This document shows, piece by piece, positions 1,415-7,384 of a stretch of DNA of 46,330 nt. The stretch's first letter is position 1, and every line of letters starts with the position of its first letter. The DNA is from Actinobacteria bacterium 21-64-8 (GTDB lineage Bacteria; Pseudomonadota; Alphaproteobacteria; Sphingomonadales; Sphingomonadaceae), in contig CAJCHR010000057.1 in the NCBI GenBank assembly GCA_903970225.1, positions 1-46,330 of the forward strand. The letters run 5' to 3'. The notes under the pieces are model-generated. The model saw only the letters and a program-made list of their open reading frames with translations, was not told the origin of the DNA and did no database searches. The position numbers were made by a program, and so were the translations under genes.

Positions 1415-1630
1415 GGAATCCTCCCGATCGTGTTTAGGTTTTGGCGAGCATCGCTGTCTTCCCGAAGCCGCGCAAGACCGCGCGCCCCACTCCGTTGTCG
1501 ACCCGGCGGGACGCCGCGTCCCGTGCATCGCGCTGGATGAGACACACGCCCGCAAGTTCGCTTGCCAACCCGCTGCATTGCGGTAGCTTTCCCGGTTAAG
1601 CCGCCAGTCACGAACGGGAACCCTCAACGC

Positions 1631-3133
1631 ATGTTCGCTCGCATCAAGTCCCTCGACGCCATCCTGGCGACGGCGGAGAAGAAGTCGCTTCATCGCTCGC
1701 TCGGTGCGTTTCAGCTGACCATGCTGGGGGTGGGTGCGGTGATCGGCACCGGTATCTTCGTCCTTACCGCCGAAGCCGCGCAGAAGGCGGGGCCGGGAAT
1801 GATCCTGAGCTTCGTGATCGCGGGGTTCGTCTGTGCGGTGGCGGCGCTGTGCTACGCCGAGATGTCCGCGATGGTGCCGGTCTCGGGCTCTGCCTATACG
1901 TATAGCTATGCGGTGATGGGTGAGCTCGTCGCGTGGATGGTCGGCTGGGCGCTGATCCTCGAATATGCGATCGCCGCAGGCGCGGTCTCGGTCGGGTGGT
2001 CGGGTTATATGGTCGGCTTCATCCAGAGCAGTTTCCACATTCATGTGCCGCTCGCGTTCGTGCGCGGGCCGTTCGACGGCGGGCTGATCAACACCCCCGC
2101 GATGATCATCGCCGCGGTCATCACCTGGCTGCTGGTGATCGGCACCAAGGAGAGCGCGACGGTCAACGCGGTGCTTGTCGCGATCAAGATCGCGGCGCTG
2201 ACGATGTTCGTGGTGCTGACGATCCCCTTGATCAGGGGCACGCAGTTCACCCCGTTCGCGCCGCTCGGCTTCGGCGGCATCTCGGGCGCGGCCGCCTCGA
2301 TCTTTTTCGCATATGTGGGCTTCGATGCGGTCTCGACCGCGGCCGAGGAGACCAAGAACCCGCAGCGCAACATGCCGATCGGCCTGATCGGCAGCCTCGC
2401 GATCTGCACCGTGTTCTACATGCTGGTCGCCGCCGGCGTCATCGGCACGGTCGGTGCGCAGCCGGTGTTCGGGCCCAATCACGAAGTGCTCTCGCCCGGC
2501 ACCACCGCGCTGTCGCAGGCGTGCATGGCGATCCAGGAGAATGCAGTCGTCTGCTCGAAGGAGGCGCTGGCCTGGACTCTGCGCCAGGTCGGTCATCCTT
2601 TCCTCGGCTACCTCGTCGGCGCGGCGGCGATCATCGCGCTGCCCTCGGTGATCCTGATGATGATGTTCGGCCAGACGCGCATCTTCTTCGTGATGAGCCG
2701 CGACGGCCTGCTCCCGGCGTTCTTCGCCAAAGTGCACCCCCGCTTCCACACGCCGCACGTGGTGACGATCATCACCGGCGTGTTCGTGATGGCGTTCTCG
2801 GCGTTCTTCCCGGTCGGGCTGCTGGCGGACGTCTCCAATGCGGGGACGCTGTTCGCCTTTGGTGCGGTCTCGATCGCGGTGATGGTGCTGCGCCGGACCG
2901 ACGCGAGCCGCCACCGCCCGTTTCGTACGCCCGTGGTCAACGTGGTGGCGCCGGTTTCGATCCTGGGCTGTATCTACCTGTTCTTCAACCTGTCGGCGGT
3001 GACGATCGAACTGTTCGTGCTGTGGGCCGCGATCGGGATTGCCGTCTATTACGGTTATAGCCGCAGCCGCAGCTATGTCGGCCGGGGTGTAGACGGCGAT
3101 GGCGATGCGGTGGCGCCGCCGGTCGGGGGTTAG
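1631..3133 (+). CDS. APC-family amino acid permease
   Basis: A 500-residue inner-membrane amino acid/cation symporter of the APC superfamily, closest in character to the cationic amino acid transporter branch (YfnA/CAT-like). About 12 hydrophobic segments can be seen. The diagnostic first helix GVGAVIGTGIFVLTAEAAQ is followed by GPGMILSFVIAGFVCAVAAL, CYAEMSAMVPVSGSAYTYSY and, in helix 6, FFAYVGFDAVSTAAEETKNP. The ATG at 1631 gives the usual cytosolic leader MFARIKSLDAILATAEKKSLHRSLG; an upstream in-frame start at 1562 would add residues not seen in the family. It stands alone between a divergent SnoaL-like gene and the SOS-controlled imuA. The exact substrate cannot be read from sequence. Confidence 0.9.
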   Translation: MFARIKSLDAILATAEKKSLHRSLGAFQLTMLGVGAVIGTGIFVLTAEAAQKAGPGMILSFVIAGFVCAVAALCYAEMSAMVPVSGSAYTYSYAVMGELVAWMVGWALILEYAIAAGAVSVGWSGYMVGFIQSSFHIHVPLAFVRGPFDGGLINTPAMIIAAVITWLLVIGTKESATVNAVLVAIKIAALTMFVVLTIPLIRGTQFTPFAPLGFGGISGAAASIFFAYVGFDAVSTAAEETKNPQRNMPIGLIGSLAICTVFYMLVAAGVIGTVGAQPVFGPNHEVLSPGTTALSQACMAIQENAVVCSKEALAWTLRQVGHPFLGYLVGAAAIIALPSVILMMMFGQTRIFFVMSRDGLLPAFFAKVHPRFHTPHVVTIITGVFVMAFSAFFPVGLLADVSNAGTLFAFGAVSIAVMVLRRTDASRHRPFRTPVVNVVAPVSILGCIYLFFNLSAVTIELFVLWAAIGIAVYYGYSRSRSYVGRGVDGDGDAVAPPVGG

Positions 3134-3236: not shown

Positions 3237-3251
3237 GAACATAGTGCGAAC
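3237..3251 (+). promoter_or_regulatory. LexA (SOS) box upstream of imuA
   Basis: GAAC, seven bases, GAAC (GAACATAGTGCGAAC) matches the known alphaproteobacterial LexA operator (direct repeat GTTC-N7-GTTC, read here on the other strand). It ends 14 bases before the imuA start. This position and the gene it precedes make SOS control very likely. Confidence 0.85.
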
Positions 3252-3265
3252 ATGGAGTCGATACC

Positions 3266-3964
3266 ATGAGCGCAGAGCCCAGCGTCCCGTCCGCGTTTCA
3301 CGCCGCGCGTGCTGCCGAGTGGCGGCCCGGGCTGGCGGGAGAGGGGGCATCCCACAGCGAGATATTTGCGTCCTCGGGTGAGGCGACGGGGGCGGCGCTC
3401 GCGCTTGCGCTGGCGATGGACCGGCTGTGTGTTTCCGAAACCGCAGCGGGCGACTCAGCCGACTTGCGGCCGTGGCTGTGGGTGCAGGATGCGCAGGCGC
3501 TGCGGCGCGATGGGCGGCCTTACCGCCCCGGCCTGTCGCAGTCGCTGCGCCACCGGCTGATCCATGTCGCAGCCAAAAGCCCCGAGGACGCACTGTTCGC
3601 GATCGAGGAGGGGCTGCGCTGCCGCGAACTCACGTTCGTGATCGGGGAGATCGCGGGCAATCCGCGGTCGCTCGATTTCACCGCCTCGCGGCGCCTCACG
3701 CTTGCGGTCGAGAAGCATGGCGTTCCGCTGTGGCTGGTGCGGCTCGATGCGAAGCGCGATCTCGGCTCGGCGCGGCTGCGCTGGGAGGCGCGTTCAGCGG
3801 TTTCGCCCGGCTCGCGATGGAACGCGCAGGCGCCGGGGGTGCCCAGCTGGCACGCCGAACTGTTCCGCGCGCGCAGTCACCCGCCCGGGGCCTGGGTGCT
3901 GCGAAATGAGCACGGGTTGCTGGCCGAGCGGGTTGGCGAGGGCGCTCCTGCTCTCCTCCCCTGA
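3266..3964 (+). CDS. imuA: ImuA, SOS mutagenesis accessory protein
   Basis: A 232-residue protein of the ImuA (RecA/SulA-like) family. With ImuB and the error-prone polymerase DnaE2 it forms the damage-induced mutasome of many alphaproteobacteria. Visible traits are a degenerate RecA-like core: HSEIFASSGEATGAALALALA, then LRPWLWVQDAQALRRDG, GLSQSLRHRLIHVAAKSPEDALFAIEEGLR and FVIGEIAGNPRSLDFTASRRL. A true Walker A motif is not evident, as is normal for ImuA. The ATG at 3266 has GGAG about eight bases upstream and follows a LexA box directly. imuB starts 50 bases downstream on the same strand. The family is confident from its order and its partner as well as its sequence. Confidence 0.9.
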   Translation: MSAEPSVPSAFHAARAAEWRPGLAGEGASHSEIFASSGEATGAALALALAMDRLCVSETAAGDSADLRPWLWVQDAQALRRDGRPYRPGLSQSLRHRLIHVAAKSPEDALFAIEEGLRCRELTFVIGEIAGNPRSLDFTASRRLTLAVEKHGVPLWLVRLDAKRDLGSARLRWEARSAVSPGSRWNAQAPGVPSWHAELFRARSHPPGAWVLRNEHGLLAERVGEGAPALLP

Positions 3965-4014
3965 GCCGCAGGCGAGCGCAGCTCAACGGGAGCGGCCTGC
4001 AGGTCGCGGGTTGA

Positions 4015-5559
4015 GTGCTCCCCCGCCGCATCCTATCGATCTGGTGCCGCGATCTCGCGATCGATCACTGGCGTCTGGGTGATGGCAATGAACAAGCCGA
4101 CGCCACCCCGCTCGCGCTGATCACCGAGACCGCGCACGGGCCGCGCATCGCCGCGCTCAACCGCGCGGGGCTCGAGACGGGGGCGCAGCCGGGCACGATG
4201 CTGGCGGATGCGCGCGCGCTGTGCCCGGGGATCGCGACCGCGCCCTCGGACCACGCTGGCGACCTCGCTCTGATCGAGAACCTGGCGGTCTGGGCGCAGC
4301 GCTGGGGCCCGTGGAGCGCGATCGATCCCCCCGATGGCGTGATCGTCGATGTCACCGGCGCGGCGCATCTGTTCGGCGGCGAGCGGGCGCTGATTGGCGA
4401 TGCGGCGATGCGTTTTGCCCGGCGCGGTTTCGCGACGCGGCTCGCGATCGCGTCCACCGCGGGTGCGGCCTGGGCGCTCGCTCACCACGGCCCCGAGGCC
4501 GCGATCCTCGAGCCCGACGATGATCCGGCCGAGCGGCTCGCGGTGTTGCCCGTGGCGGCGTTGCGGCTCGACGCGGCTACCGTGCTGCTGCTGAGGCGCC
4601 TCGGGCTCAAGCGGCTGGGCGATCTTCACGGTGTCGCGCGCAAAAACCTCACGCGCCGCTTCCGCCACCACAGCACACCCGCCGCCAATCCGCTGATCCG
4701 CATGGACCAGCTCATCGGCCGGGTGCCCGAGCCGCTGCTGCCGGTGATCGCTCACGATGCCCCGATGGTCGAGCGCCGGCTGATGGAGCCGATCCGCCAC
4801 CGCGAACTGCTCGACCGGGTGATCGCCGATCTGTGCGCGGACATGGCGCGCCTGCTTGAAGGCCGGGCGCAAGGCGCGCGCAGGCTGGAACTCGGGTTCT
4901 GGCGGGTCGATGGCGAGGTCGTGGTGCGCAGCCTCGAGCTTGCCGCCGCGAGCCGCGATCCGGCGCACATCGCGGGGCTGCTGGGCCGCAAGCTCGACGA
5001 TATCGACGCTGGCCTCGGCATCGAACTCGCGCGGTTGCGCAGCGCCTGGATCGAGCCGCTGGCGCTCTCGCAGCGCGATTTCGAGGAGGGCGCCGAAGCA
5101 CGCGGCACCAGCCTTGCCACCTGTATCGACCGCCTGACCGCACGGCTTGGCGCGCAAGCGGTGCGTCGCCCGGTGCCGCAAGCGAGTCATCTGCCCGAAC
5201 GTGCACAGCGCTGGCAGCTGCCGTTGGAGCCAGTCAGGGGCCAGCAGGACGAGTTCGAATTCCACGCCCGGCCGGTGAAACTGCTCGACCGCGCCGAGCC
5301 GATCGGAGTGGTCTACCTCAGCCCCGACGGCCTGCCGCGGCGCTTCCGCTGGCGCGGCGAGGTCCACGAGATCGCCCGCGTCGAAGGCCCCGAACGCATC
5401 GCGCCCGAATGGTGGCGCGAACGCTCGACCACGCGCCTGCGCGACTATTACCGGATCGAGGACGAGCAAGGCCGTCGCTACTGGATCTACCGCAGCGGGC
5501 TACCGGATGATGGGCGCGGAGGGGTGCCCGCCTGGTTCCTGCAAGGGCTGTGCGGGTAA
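4015..5559 (+). CDS. imuB: ImuB, Y-family polymerase-like mutagenesis protein
   Basis: A 514-residue ImuB protein: a Y-family DNA polymerase homologue without polymerase activity that bridges the beta clamp and DnaE2 during SOS mutagenesis. The polymerase-like N-terminus (ILSIWCRDLAIDHWR, PLALITE, GTMLADARALCPG) is followed by a palm-like segment in which the paired acidic residues of active Y-family enzymes are not recognisable. The DVTGAAHLFGGE block and the little-finger-like region follow, with a C-terminal tail rich in aromatic residues (EWWRERSTTRLRDYYRIE, YWIYRSG). The start is GTG at 4015; an in-frame stop lies immediately upstream, so no earlier start is possible. The odd point is what follows: tRNA-Ser, not dnaE2. 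Confidence 0.93.
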   Translation: MLPRRILSIWCRDLAIDHWRLGDGNEQADATPLALITETAHGPRIAALNRAGLETGAQPGTMLADARALCPGIATAPSDHAGDLALIENLAVWAQRWGPWSAIDPPDGVIVDVTGAAHLFGGERALIGDAAMRFARRGFATRLAIASTAGAAWALAHHGPEAAILEPDDDPAERLAVLPVAALRLDAATVLLLRRLGLKRLGDLHGVARKNLTRRFRHHSTPAANPLIRMDQLIGRVPEPLLPVIAHDAPMVERRLMEPIRHRELLDRVIADLCADMARLLEGRAQGARRLELGFWRVDGEVVVRSLELAAASRDPAHIAGLLGRKLDDIDAGLGIELARLRSAWIEPLALSQRDFEEGAEARGTSLATCIDRLTARLGAQAVRRPVPQASHLPERAQRWQLPLEPVRGQQDEFEFHARPVKLLDRAEPIGVVYLSPDGLPRRFRWRGEVHEIARVEGPERIAPEWWRERSTTRLRDYYRIEDEQGRRYWIYRSGLPDDGRGGVPAWFLQGLCG

Positions 5560-5665
5560 AGCCTTTCCCGTTTTCCCGCCTTTAAGATCGCGCCTGCCGA
5601 ATGCACCAAGCCGCCCTTGCGGAACCGCCGCCGCGCGGCTAGTGCGCACGCCTTCCAGGACATGC

Positions 5666-5756
5666 GGAGCGGTGGCCGAGTGGTCGAAGGCGCTCGCCTG
5701 GAAAGTGAGTATACGCCAAAAGCGTATCGAGGGTTCGAATCCCTCCCGCTCCGCCA
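5666..5756 (+). tRNA. tRNA-Ser(GGA)
   Basis: A 91-base class II tRNA with an encoded CCA. The acceptor GGAGCGG pairs with CCGCTCC, the anticodon arm CTCGC-loop-GTGAG carries GGA at 5700-5702, and a long variable arm (TACGC/GCGTA) is present. The T arm is AGGGTTCGAATCCCT. A P4-type integrase remnant starts 174 bases downstream, so this tRNA is the likely attachment site of an integrated element. Confidence 0.97.
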
Positions 5757-5782
5757 CGGACCATTCCATAGCGGTCCGTAAA

Positions 5783-5806
5783 GGACCACTGGTCTCGACT
5801 TTTTTC
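5783..5806 (+). terminator. Probable intrinsic terminator after tRNA-Ser
   Basis: A short stem (GGACC, ACT, GGTCT) is followed a few bases later by a run of six T (CTTTTTTCC). It lies about 27 bases after the tRNA 3' end, which suits tRNA termination. The stem is short, so confidence is moderate. Confidence 0.5.
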
Positions 5807-5929
5807 CTCCTGAAAACCGACACTTAGCAGACCGGTTCGGCCTCGGCCGTCCGTGCCAATCCGGTGAGCTGGAAGGGCGAAAACGGGGTACGCGTGGTCG
5901 AAAAACGAGGTATTTTTGGAGACCGAACC

Positions 5930-6280
5930 ATGCTTGCCGATTCCAAGGTGCGGACGGCCAAGGCGCGCCCGAAAACCTACAAACTTGCCGACTCCAATCG
6001 CCTCTTCCTGATGGTCACCCCGAGCGGCGGCAAACACTGGCGCTGGAATTACGAGTACGACGGCAAATACAAGACAATGGCCTTAGGCGCCTATCCCCTC
6101 GTCTCGCTCGCTGATGCGCGCACGAAGCGAGATGAGGCCTACGCGCTTCTTTGCGAAGGACAGGATCCCAATGTCGCGAAGCGGCTGAAGATCGAAGCGA
6201 ACATTAAAGCTGCTCGTCAAACGTTCGGGCGTGTGGCTCGCGAGTGGCACGCAAATGCCAAGGCCCAGTGGGCAACGATC
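5930..6280 (+). pseudogene. P4-type tyrosine integrase, N-terminal remnant
   Basis: About 117 residues of the N-terminal DNA-binding region of a P4-like phage/island integrase (DUF4102 type). The sequence has MLADSKVRTAKARPKTYKLA, the tract LFLMVTPSGGKHWRWNYEYD, MALGAYPLVSLADARTKRDEA and QTFGRVAREWHANAKAQW. Intact proteins have about 400 residues; the core-binding and catalytic domains with the R..HxxR..Y residues are entirely missing. Identity is lost near 6275 at a junction with a peptidase scrap. It sits in the usual place for such integrases, directly after a tRNA 3' end, which marks an old island boundary. Confidence 0.85.
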
Positions 6281-6402
6281 CATGGCCACACCGCTGGTCG
6301 CGGGCTGCGCTGCGGGCGTGTGCGAATACCTGGTCGCTTCGGGCGTGGTGTCGCCGAGCGCTGCGCTGATCAAGGCGATGCTGATCAACGGCGCTCACCC
6401 GC
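6270..6402 (+). pseudogene. Subtilisin-family (S8) peptidase fragment
   Basis: In a different frame from the integrase remnant the sequence reads RSMATPLVAGCAAGVCEYL, VASGVVSPSAALIKAMLING and AHPL. This is the block around the catalytic Ser of subtilases (normally GTSMATPxVAG) and the helix after it. Nothing of the Asp or His regions is present. The join lies around ATCCATGGCCA, where both families could share a few bases, so it looks like a short-homology deletion joining two genes. The first Gly-Thr of GTSMATP is already altered (GQR). A further frame-shifted stretch (TAAEAVAFLKDRERNRPDD, about 6418-6474) is unassigned. Confidence 0.7.
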
Positions 6403-6526
6403 TGCAGGGCCGCCGTCGAGACTGCCGCCGAGGCGGTGGCTTTCCTCAAGGATCGTGAGCGCAACCGGCCAGACGATAAGGCCAAAGCTCACCGAGCCGA
6501 TGATGTTCATCATTGGCCGCGTACCT

Positions 6527-7384
6527 CTAGATCTCATTGCGGACCTGCCCGTGTGCCAGAACGGCGAAGAGTCCCGTACCGCCTAGGATGTTCCCGATCA
6601 GAGCGGGGAGTATGAAGCCAGCGGTTGCCCAGCCAAACGAGGCGCGCCCCACGATCCAGAGCAGCCATGCTTCGGCTGAACCGGCCACGACGTGGCTGAA
6701 CCCCCCGATCGCAATAACGTAGGTGATCACGACGACGATCCAAAACTCGCTGCCCCGCGCGCTGGGTAAGATCCAGGCTATTGCGCCGACCAGAAAGCCG
6801 GCCGGGATCCCAAGTAGCAGGGTGCTAAGGAAATCATGATCCAGCAGCCGCGACGACAGATCGACGGCCGACGAAAGTTGCTCGGGAGAAAGGATCACTC
6901 GCCACCCCATTAGAGCCGCAACCACTATGGTGCCCAGCATGTTGCCAGCGAACACAAGTGCCCAGAGCCTCGCCAGCCGCCGAATGTTGCGCAGCGTTGG
7001 ATGGGTGGCTATCGGAAGGACAGCGGTGACTGTGTTCTCGGTGAAGAGCTGAAGGTTGCCAAGGATCACTATCACGAACCCGACGGAGTAGCCGAGCCCG
7101 GCAATAAGCTCGGATGCAGGCGAATTGGGGAGCCGGAGCTTGAGGAATGTCTCTGCCAGCACTGATACGCTGATGGCCAACCCTGCGGCAAATGCAGAGA
7201 ACAGGAGAGACATGACCGGGCGCCCCAGTTCGTCCTGACCCTGCAGGCGGATGATCTCGTGCACGACACGCGCTGAGCCGGACTTCTTCTCGGCAACGGC
7301 CTGCACTTCCTCGTCGGACAAGCTGTCGGATGGGGTTTCCTCTTCCTCCGACTCCGGCTCGATTTCCGCCAAAATTATTCCCAT
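6527..7384 (-). CDS. Formate/nitrite transporter (FNT) family channel, YfdC-like
   Basis: A 285-residue FNT-family inner-membrane pore. FNT pentamers carry small monovalent anions; this branch (YfdC-like, with a long acidic N-terminus) has no settled substrate. Visible: an acidic leader (EIEPESEEEETPSDSLSDEE), VVHEIIRLQGQDELGRPV before helix 1, six hydrophobic segments, the FNT block GFVIVILGNLQLFTENTVTAVLP, and later FAGNMLGTIVVAAL and FILPALIGNILGGTGLFAVLAHGQV. The ATG at 7384 fits the acidic leader of relatives; the frame stays open to a TTG at 7531, but the added residues look like untranslated sequence. It points back toward the integrase remnant and stands alone. Confidence 0.88.
   Translation of the reverse strand: MGIILAEIEPESEEEETPSDSLSDEEVQAVAEKKSGSARVVHEIIRLQGQDELGRPVMSLLFSAFAAGLAISVSVLAETFLKLRLPNSPASELIAGLGYSVGFVIVILGNLQLFTENTVTAVLPIATHPTLRNIRRLARLWALVFAGNMLGTIVVAALMGWRVILSPEQLSSAVDLSSRLLDHDFLSTLLLGIPAGFLVGAIAWILPSARGSEFWIVVVITYVIAIGGFSHVVAGSAEAWLLWIVGRASFGWATAGFILPALIGNILGGTGLFAVLAHGQVRNEI

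Follow-up and report, generated by a model that had tools for sequence, protein, structure and literature searches.

imuA-imuB beside tRNA-Ser and dnaE2 beside relA: an SOS mutagenesis cassette very probably split by rearrangement in a member of the Sphingomonadaceae

Almost all configurations of the imuA, imuB and dnaE2 cassette exist in bacteria, including those in which each gene occupies its own locus behind its own SOS box (relevant section of PMC3901139). Mycobacterium tuberculosis is named as a split form in that section, and its arrangement is termed a split cassette in a passage of PMC10421592. Its imuA'-imuB and dnaE2 are at two loci, each LexA-controlled (the same parts of PMC3901139 and PMC10421592), a layout shared by the genome described here. 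The latter differs in having a proteobacterial imuA rather than imuA', in probably deriving from a linked arrangement that persists in relatives, and in possessing a third SOS-boxed unit, which encodes a radical SAM protein (rSAM) and UdgX. Erill 2006 is reportedly the study cited for split cassettes.

Caulobacter crescentus has an imuA-imuB-dnaE2 operon, i.e., the same three genes as here, with a box of the same type, GTTCN7GTTC (GAACN7GAAC on the other strand); dnaE2 is co-transcribed with imuA-imuB in that organism, whereas here it lies at another locus (as outlined in part of PMC9578287). The linked cassettes of Novosphingobium and the Erythrobacteraceae share their box types with the source genome (G000), and their imuA, imuB and dnaE2 are orthologous to its genes, but there imuB and dnaE2 are at most 8.1 kb apart, in many cases with a box-rSAM-UdgX unit preceding dnaE2, whereas dnaE2 of the source genome sits between relA and a hemD-like gene. 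Since split configurations are already known, this genome adds another case to a known kind; its distinctive feature is a break located at the border of a promoter.

The imuA-imuB locus and its tRNA-Ser neighbour

The window, i.e., the whole stretch of DNA analysed (46,330 nucleotides), is the entire contig C57 of a draft assembly of 4,090,219 bases in 525 contigs (96.7% complete, 5.5% contamination). The features around imuA-imuB are:

1562..3133, + strand: amino-acid permease (NCBIfam TIGR00909, 434.9 bits, under the cut-off of 556.8)
3237..3251, + strand: LexA (SOS) box GAACATAGTGCGAAC, exact motif, 14 bases 5' of the imuA ATG
3266..3964, + strand: imuA, open frame, 232 aa
4015..5559, + strand: imuB, open frame, 514 aa
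5560..5610, no strand: putative rearrangement junction, from the imuB side to the tRNA-Ser side; similarity to relatives' tRNA-Ser upstream region starts at 5611 at the earliest
5611..5665, + strand: conserved region 5' of tRNA-Ser (89-97% identity jointly with the tRNA in 9 relatives)
5666..5756, + strand: tRNA-Ser(GGA) (ARAGORN), intact, 106 bases 3' of imuB
5927..6283, + strand: integrase remnant, arm DNA-binding domain (PF13356, E=1.2e-23)

The earlier note, made from the window alone, had called the LexA box, imuA and imuB intact, and they are: the box is in place, both frames are open and both genes are matched in relatives. Syntenic imuA genes of 15 relatives are 61-70% identical to imuA of the window (plus a second, short match of 57%) and those of eight additional relatives 59-71% (23 relatives in total, main matches); the NCBIfam ImuA model NF033429 gives it 24.4 bits, under the cut-off of 150. 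imuB is a single-copy gene, matched across its length in 12 relatives (66-74% identity) and by Pfam IMS_C and DUF6504 above their cut-offs; comparing imuB with solved structures returned nothing useful. The permease is the left (upstream) neighbour of imuA in many relatives too.

The operon form, with dnaE2 directly 3' of imuB, was not found in the window, and the intact tRNA-Ser that the note had placed after imuB is indeed the next gene. tRNA-Ser(GGA) is single copy in the genome, the next tRNA-Ser-like matches being 78% and 72% identical. The region 5' of it, probably its promoter, is conserved from 5611-5616 in seven relatives and from 5634 or 5638 in two. relA lies 5' of this tRNA on the same strand, 0.4-2.6 kb off, in 8 of the 9 relatives fetched, and was not found near it in the ninth (L142).

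Integrases that target tRNA genes act at the tRNA 3' end, and the ATG of the integrase remnant lies 170 bases 3' of tRNA-Ser. ORF 5864-6586 has no Pfam domain besides the arm domain, and a complete tyrosine recombinase was not found beside the tRNA in frames inspected by eye up to position 6900. No second copy of the tRNA-Ser 3' end (direct repeat) occurs in the window at ≤3 mismatches; elsewhere in the genome there is one match, with 2 mismatches, inside another tRNA-Ser-like locus. Integrase-like sequence also follows the same tRNA-Ser(GGA) in G033 (L147, 43% identity) and G055 (L142, 34% identity), as compared with window 5666-6586, and this tRNA may be a recurrent integration site. The stretch from 11062 to 44008 looks rich in catabolic genes; a P450 and a sulfotransferase were found there, along with a CoA-transferase, an aldehyde dehydrogenase and a type I secretion set recognised by eye.

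dnaE2 in the source genome and its linkage to imuB in relatives

The earlier note supposed that dnaE2 was either elsewhere in the genome or lost, and suggested a genome-wide search for the gene with a GAAC-N7-GAAC box. It is elsewhere: model NF004225 recovers dnaE2 on C70:2146-4821 (1123.7 bits vs. a cut-off of 939), with its own LexA box, GAACATATAAGGAAC, at C70:2029-2043, 27 bases 5' of a start codon placed by alignment. The same model matches the 3' part of the gene on C135:44-997, dnaE2 being split by a contig end; apart from this break, the frames of imuA, imuB and dnaE2 are all open. The join between C70 and C135 was drawn from protein alignment only: when aligned to nine relatives, the two DnaE2 parts meet or overlap in three (L073, L180 and L194; on L073 they cover residues 1-864 and 861-1167), and on the other six 4-41 residues between them stay unaligned, at a repeat. 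The end of C70 has a copy of a palindromic repeat that is present inside dnaE2 too, and the start of C135 appears similar by eye. In-frame palindromic repeats inside dnaE2 lie at about C70:2585-2690 and at 4724-4745; N. aquimarinum (L158) and L174 have similar residues near 173-203 of DnaE2.

Lower-scoring matches on C270 were rejected as dnaE2 and presumably represent the replicative dnaE, and a tRNA-Asp reported by ARAGORN inside dnaE2 was judged false. Contamination was rejected as the origin of C70 because relA, single copy in this genome, lies on that contig, followed by dnaE2. Similarity to relatives' dnaE2 upstream regions starts at about C70:2008, and a GACTCGC stretch 5' of the dnaE2 box is common to 4 of the other 13 upstream regions compared (a fifth, L156, carries it 3' of its box). 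The hemD-like right neighbour of dnaE2 is present in 17/17 relatives searched; as none of the imu and tRNA-Ser regions retrieved for relatives showed it, hemD was rejected as an old neighbour of relA or dnaE2.

Linkage was surveyed in 80 loci of Novosphingobium, Erythrobacter and kin, a set that overlaps with our G-coded relatives and in which related loci are counted singly. dnaE2 lies 3' of imuB, on the same strand and within 8.1 kb, in 74 of them, and in the remaining six the contig stops 0.8 to 5.2 kb past imuB. The longest of the six (L163, the same locus as L133) continues for 5.2 kb 3' of imuB without dnaE2; the genes after imuB there read by eye as catabolic, among them a Rieske oxygenase (L163:2951-8168, Novosphingobium sp. 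SH_68_18). Among 16 genus relatives with a close imuB (G012 and G039, which have imuB fragments, were left out), 14 have a same-strand dnaE2 within 6.1 kb. The other two are G018, where the genes extend over two contigs, and G036, where dnaE2 is 66 kb off on the opposite strand. G018 was rejected as a separated cassette because its contigs fit imuB-rSAM and UdgX-dnaE2; G036 is split, like the source genome. dnaE2 is downstream in seven of eight further relatives, and L133 is without dnaE2 on its contig.

tRNA-Ser is beside imu genes in 0/80 loci and in none of the imu regions fetched from 24 relatives. The possibility raised in the note, that imuA-imuB next to tRNA-Ser is an ordinary arrangement among relatives, therefore falls away, and the arrangement in the source genome is derived.

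In G036 (C1:69525-141111), dnaE2 adjoins dnaK/dnaJ-like genes and imuB a radA-like gene (names by eye); the source genome has a radA-like gene on C516 with a LexA-like box beside it. G007, G025, G028, G029 and G036 have two or three imuB genes each, with copies 38-42% identical to imuB of the window (the G036 pair is 74% and 38% identical), and most of these imuB genes directly adjoin a dnaE2.

LexA boxes and the rSAM-UdgX unit

Chance alone yields many copies of the bare motif GAAC-N7-GAAC, which has 134 sites in the source genome vs. 74 for the reversed pattern. GAACATN5GAAC has 10 sites vs. 0 reversed, although not all 10 need be functional, the C151 box falling within an ORF. The 74 loci with both genes were sorted by the gap between imuB and dnaE2, the six loci without dnaE2 being dropped:

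Adjacent genes: 15 loci; own dnaE2 box in 0/15
rSAM inside the gap: 47 loci; rSAM box in 47/47, own dnaE2 box in 1/47 (L165)
Gap without rSAM: 12 loci; own dnaE2 box in 11/12 (exception L167)

An own dnaE2 box thus occurs in 11/12 gaps without rSAM vs. 1/62 of the other loci (Fisher p=3.4e-11, uncorrected for relatedness); the gap of L167 lacks a box altogether, and L165 carries two. One sequence leads both tallies, that of rSAM boxes (22 occurrences) and that of own dnaE2 boxes (5), and it is also the dnaE2 box of the source genome. The commonest imuA box is GAACATAATAAGAAC (20), and imuA-box counts are 1 too high in two gap classes, where the offsets of L159 and L199 are contig-edge artefacts and imuA was not found in L227.

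In the dnaE2 tree, the source genome pairs with G036 (support 0.948) inside an eight-member clade whose other members either lack rSAM and have an own dnaE2 box (5) or have an adjacent dnaE2 (L153). In the imuB tree both belong to an 11-member clade (0.984) and are not paired. Seven rows repeating another genome were dropped from the trees, as were fragments shorter than 480 (imuB) or 500 (dnaE2) residues. Judging from the boxes, imuA-imuB and dnaE2 appear to be two SOS units already in most relatives, with dnaE2 either ending a box-rSAM-UdgX-dnaE2 unit or having its own box, and we infer that they were separate units in the lineage of the source genome before the break.

The names rSAM and UdgX come from NCBIfam matches in L185 and L154 (TIGR03916; TIGR03915 and TIGR03914), and the genes were traced to the remaining loci with the proteins of the source genome. 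A LexA-boxed pair of rSAM (TIGR03916) and TIGR03915/UdgX lies between imuB and dnaE2 in 47/74 loci (e.g., L185:12534-15250). The distance from the UdgX stop to the dnaE2 start has a median of 1 base (range -58 to 1063, 47 loci), so a single transcription unit is likely. The UdgX motifs, described in part of PMC10359453, are GEQPG (46/47 UdgX) and a K-R/K-R/K-x-H loop (37/47), and UdgX of the source genome has both. Its rSAM-UdgX forms a separate unit on C242 (L242:2220-5456), with a hemerythrin-like gene between rSAM and UdgX and an adjoining topoisomerase IB. rSAM-UdgX lies elsewhere in the genome, with its own box, in G021 and G036 as well. A UdgX search in 11 genomes gave no match in G189 and G114 and sub-cut-off matches only in G004 and G158; UdgX seems to be absent, not merely relocated, in some relatives.

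Within the class, 24 of 289 sampled genomes carry UdgX above the cut-off, the source genome included. When neighbourhoods were taken at one locus per genome, about 1.5 kb each side (second matches of G399 and G289 left out), imu genes were found near UdgX in 4/23 other genomes: G339 (L265), of the same family as the source genome; G341 (L272) and G208 (L274), of one genus of family f14; and G281 (L276), of family f87. Larger stretches were taken from 17 of the 24 genomes (G289 at its second match). The order is UdgX-imuA-imuB-dnaE2 in G341 and UdgX-imuB-dnaE2 in G208 (imuA not detected), and a box lies between UdgX and dnaE2 in G281, just 5' of rSAM in G339 and G206, and 5' of UdgX in G198. 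The remaining 11 stretches have no imu genes and no box close to UdgX. Two other families in this class thus have UdgX adjoining imuA-imuB-dnaE2 or dnaE2 (L272, L274, L276; L288-L290). In the literature searched, UdgX was not found together with ImuB, with radical SAM, or with SOS and LexA.

We tentatively propose, with slightly less than even confidence, that UdgX and its radical-SAM partner recur as part of the SOS mutagenesis regulon, as a LexA-boxed operon ending in dnaE2 in Novosphingobium and the Erythrobacteraceae and, in two other families, with UdgX next to dnaE2 or to imuA-imuB-dnaE2. UdgX (uracil-DNA cross-linking) and DnaE2 would work together on uracil or abasic sites in damage-induced synthesis, and the regulon of the source genome would have been scattered to three boxed loci.

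Origin of the split arrangement

Relative to its relatives, the source genome has exchanged neighbour pairs: imuB-dnaE2 and relA-tRNA-Ser in the relatives correspond to imuB-tRNA-Ser and relA-dnaE2 here. Together with the separate locus of dnaE2 and its LexA box, as in split forms, this makes it very likely that imuA-imuB of the window is half of a split, LexA-controlled imuA-imuB/dnaE2 cassette, produced by rearrangement and predicted to be co-induced by the SOS response from separate loci. DNA damage would lift LexA from the boxes before imuA, dnaE2 (C70) and rSAM-UdgX (C242), the parts would be induced together despite their different loci, and ImuB would bring DnaE2 to the clamp, by analogy with other bacteria.

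At the start, imuA-imuB and rSAM-UdgX-dnaE2 would have been neighbouring, separate SOS units. rSAM-UdgX would then have moved away, as it would have in G021 and G036, so that an rSAM-type box came to stand 5' of dnaE2, and a later, apparently recent rearrangement would have separated imuB from the dnaE2 promoter and relA from tRNA-Ser, producing the two new junctions. We infer this order of events from the arrangements compared. The right flank of dnaE2 (hemD-like) is also new, which implies more than two breaks, at least three. A one-step inversion was rejected by reasoning only, as it fails to give the observed orientations, and a shared repeat at the junctions was rejected as the cause of either a rearrangement or a chimera, the two junctions having no common word >8 bases.

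If the imuB-tRNA-Ser junction were an assembly chimera, dnaE2 would still lie 3' of imuB in the living genome. The fragmentation and contamination of the draft (525 contigs, 5.5%) would allow for this, as would the occurrence of the junction in 0/80 loci and in no other match among those listed. But there are two complementary junctions, on separate contigs and lacking a shared word, and relA and tRNA-Ser are each single copy, so we regard a chimera as improbable. Integration of an island at tRNA-Ser, which could also have parted imuB from dnaE2, is very unlikely. The earlier note had remarked that the break coincides with a tRNA serving as an island attachment site, and the tRNA does carry integrase sequence, here as a remnant and also in G033 and G055; a causal role for an island does not follow, since the junction precedes the tRNA on its 5' side and the window holds no second copy of the tRNA end. 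Moreover, the order imuB-tRNA-Ser-dnaE2 occurs in no relative examined, and dnaE2 adjoins relA. That dnaE2 was lost and imuA-imuB is a relic has next to no probability: nothing speaks for it beyond the missing neighbour in the window, and dnaE2 was found above the cut-off, with its own box and with all three frames open apart from the contig break.

Under a split by rearrangement, imuA-imuB and dnaE2 would already have been separate SOS units, so that the break fell on the boundary of a promoter, and SOS control would be expected to persist; with dnaE2 bringing a promoter of its own, regulation need not have been lost in the break. A mutagenesis operon could in this way be dismantled without loss of damage control when it breaks where a second LexA-boxed promoter stood. 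The SOS-boxed rSAM-UdgX beside dnaE2 is the less expected part of the finding, and the comparison links UdgX to SOS mutagenesis genes.
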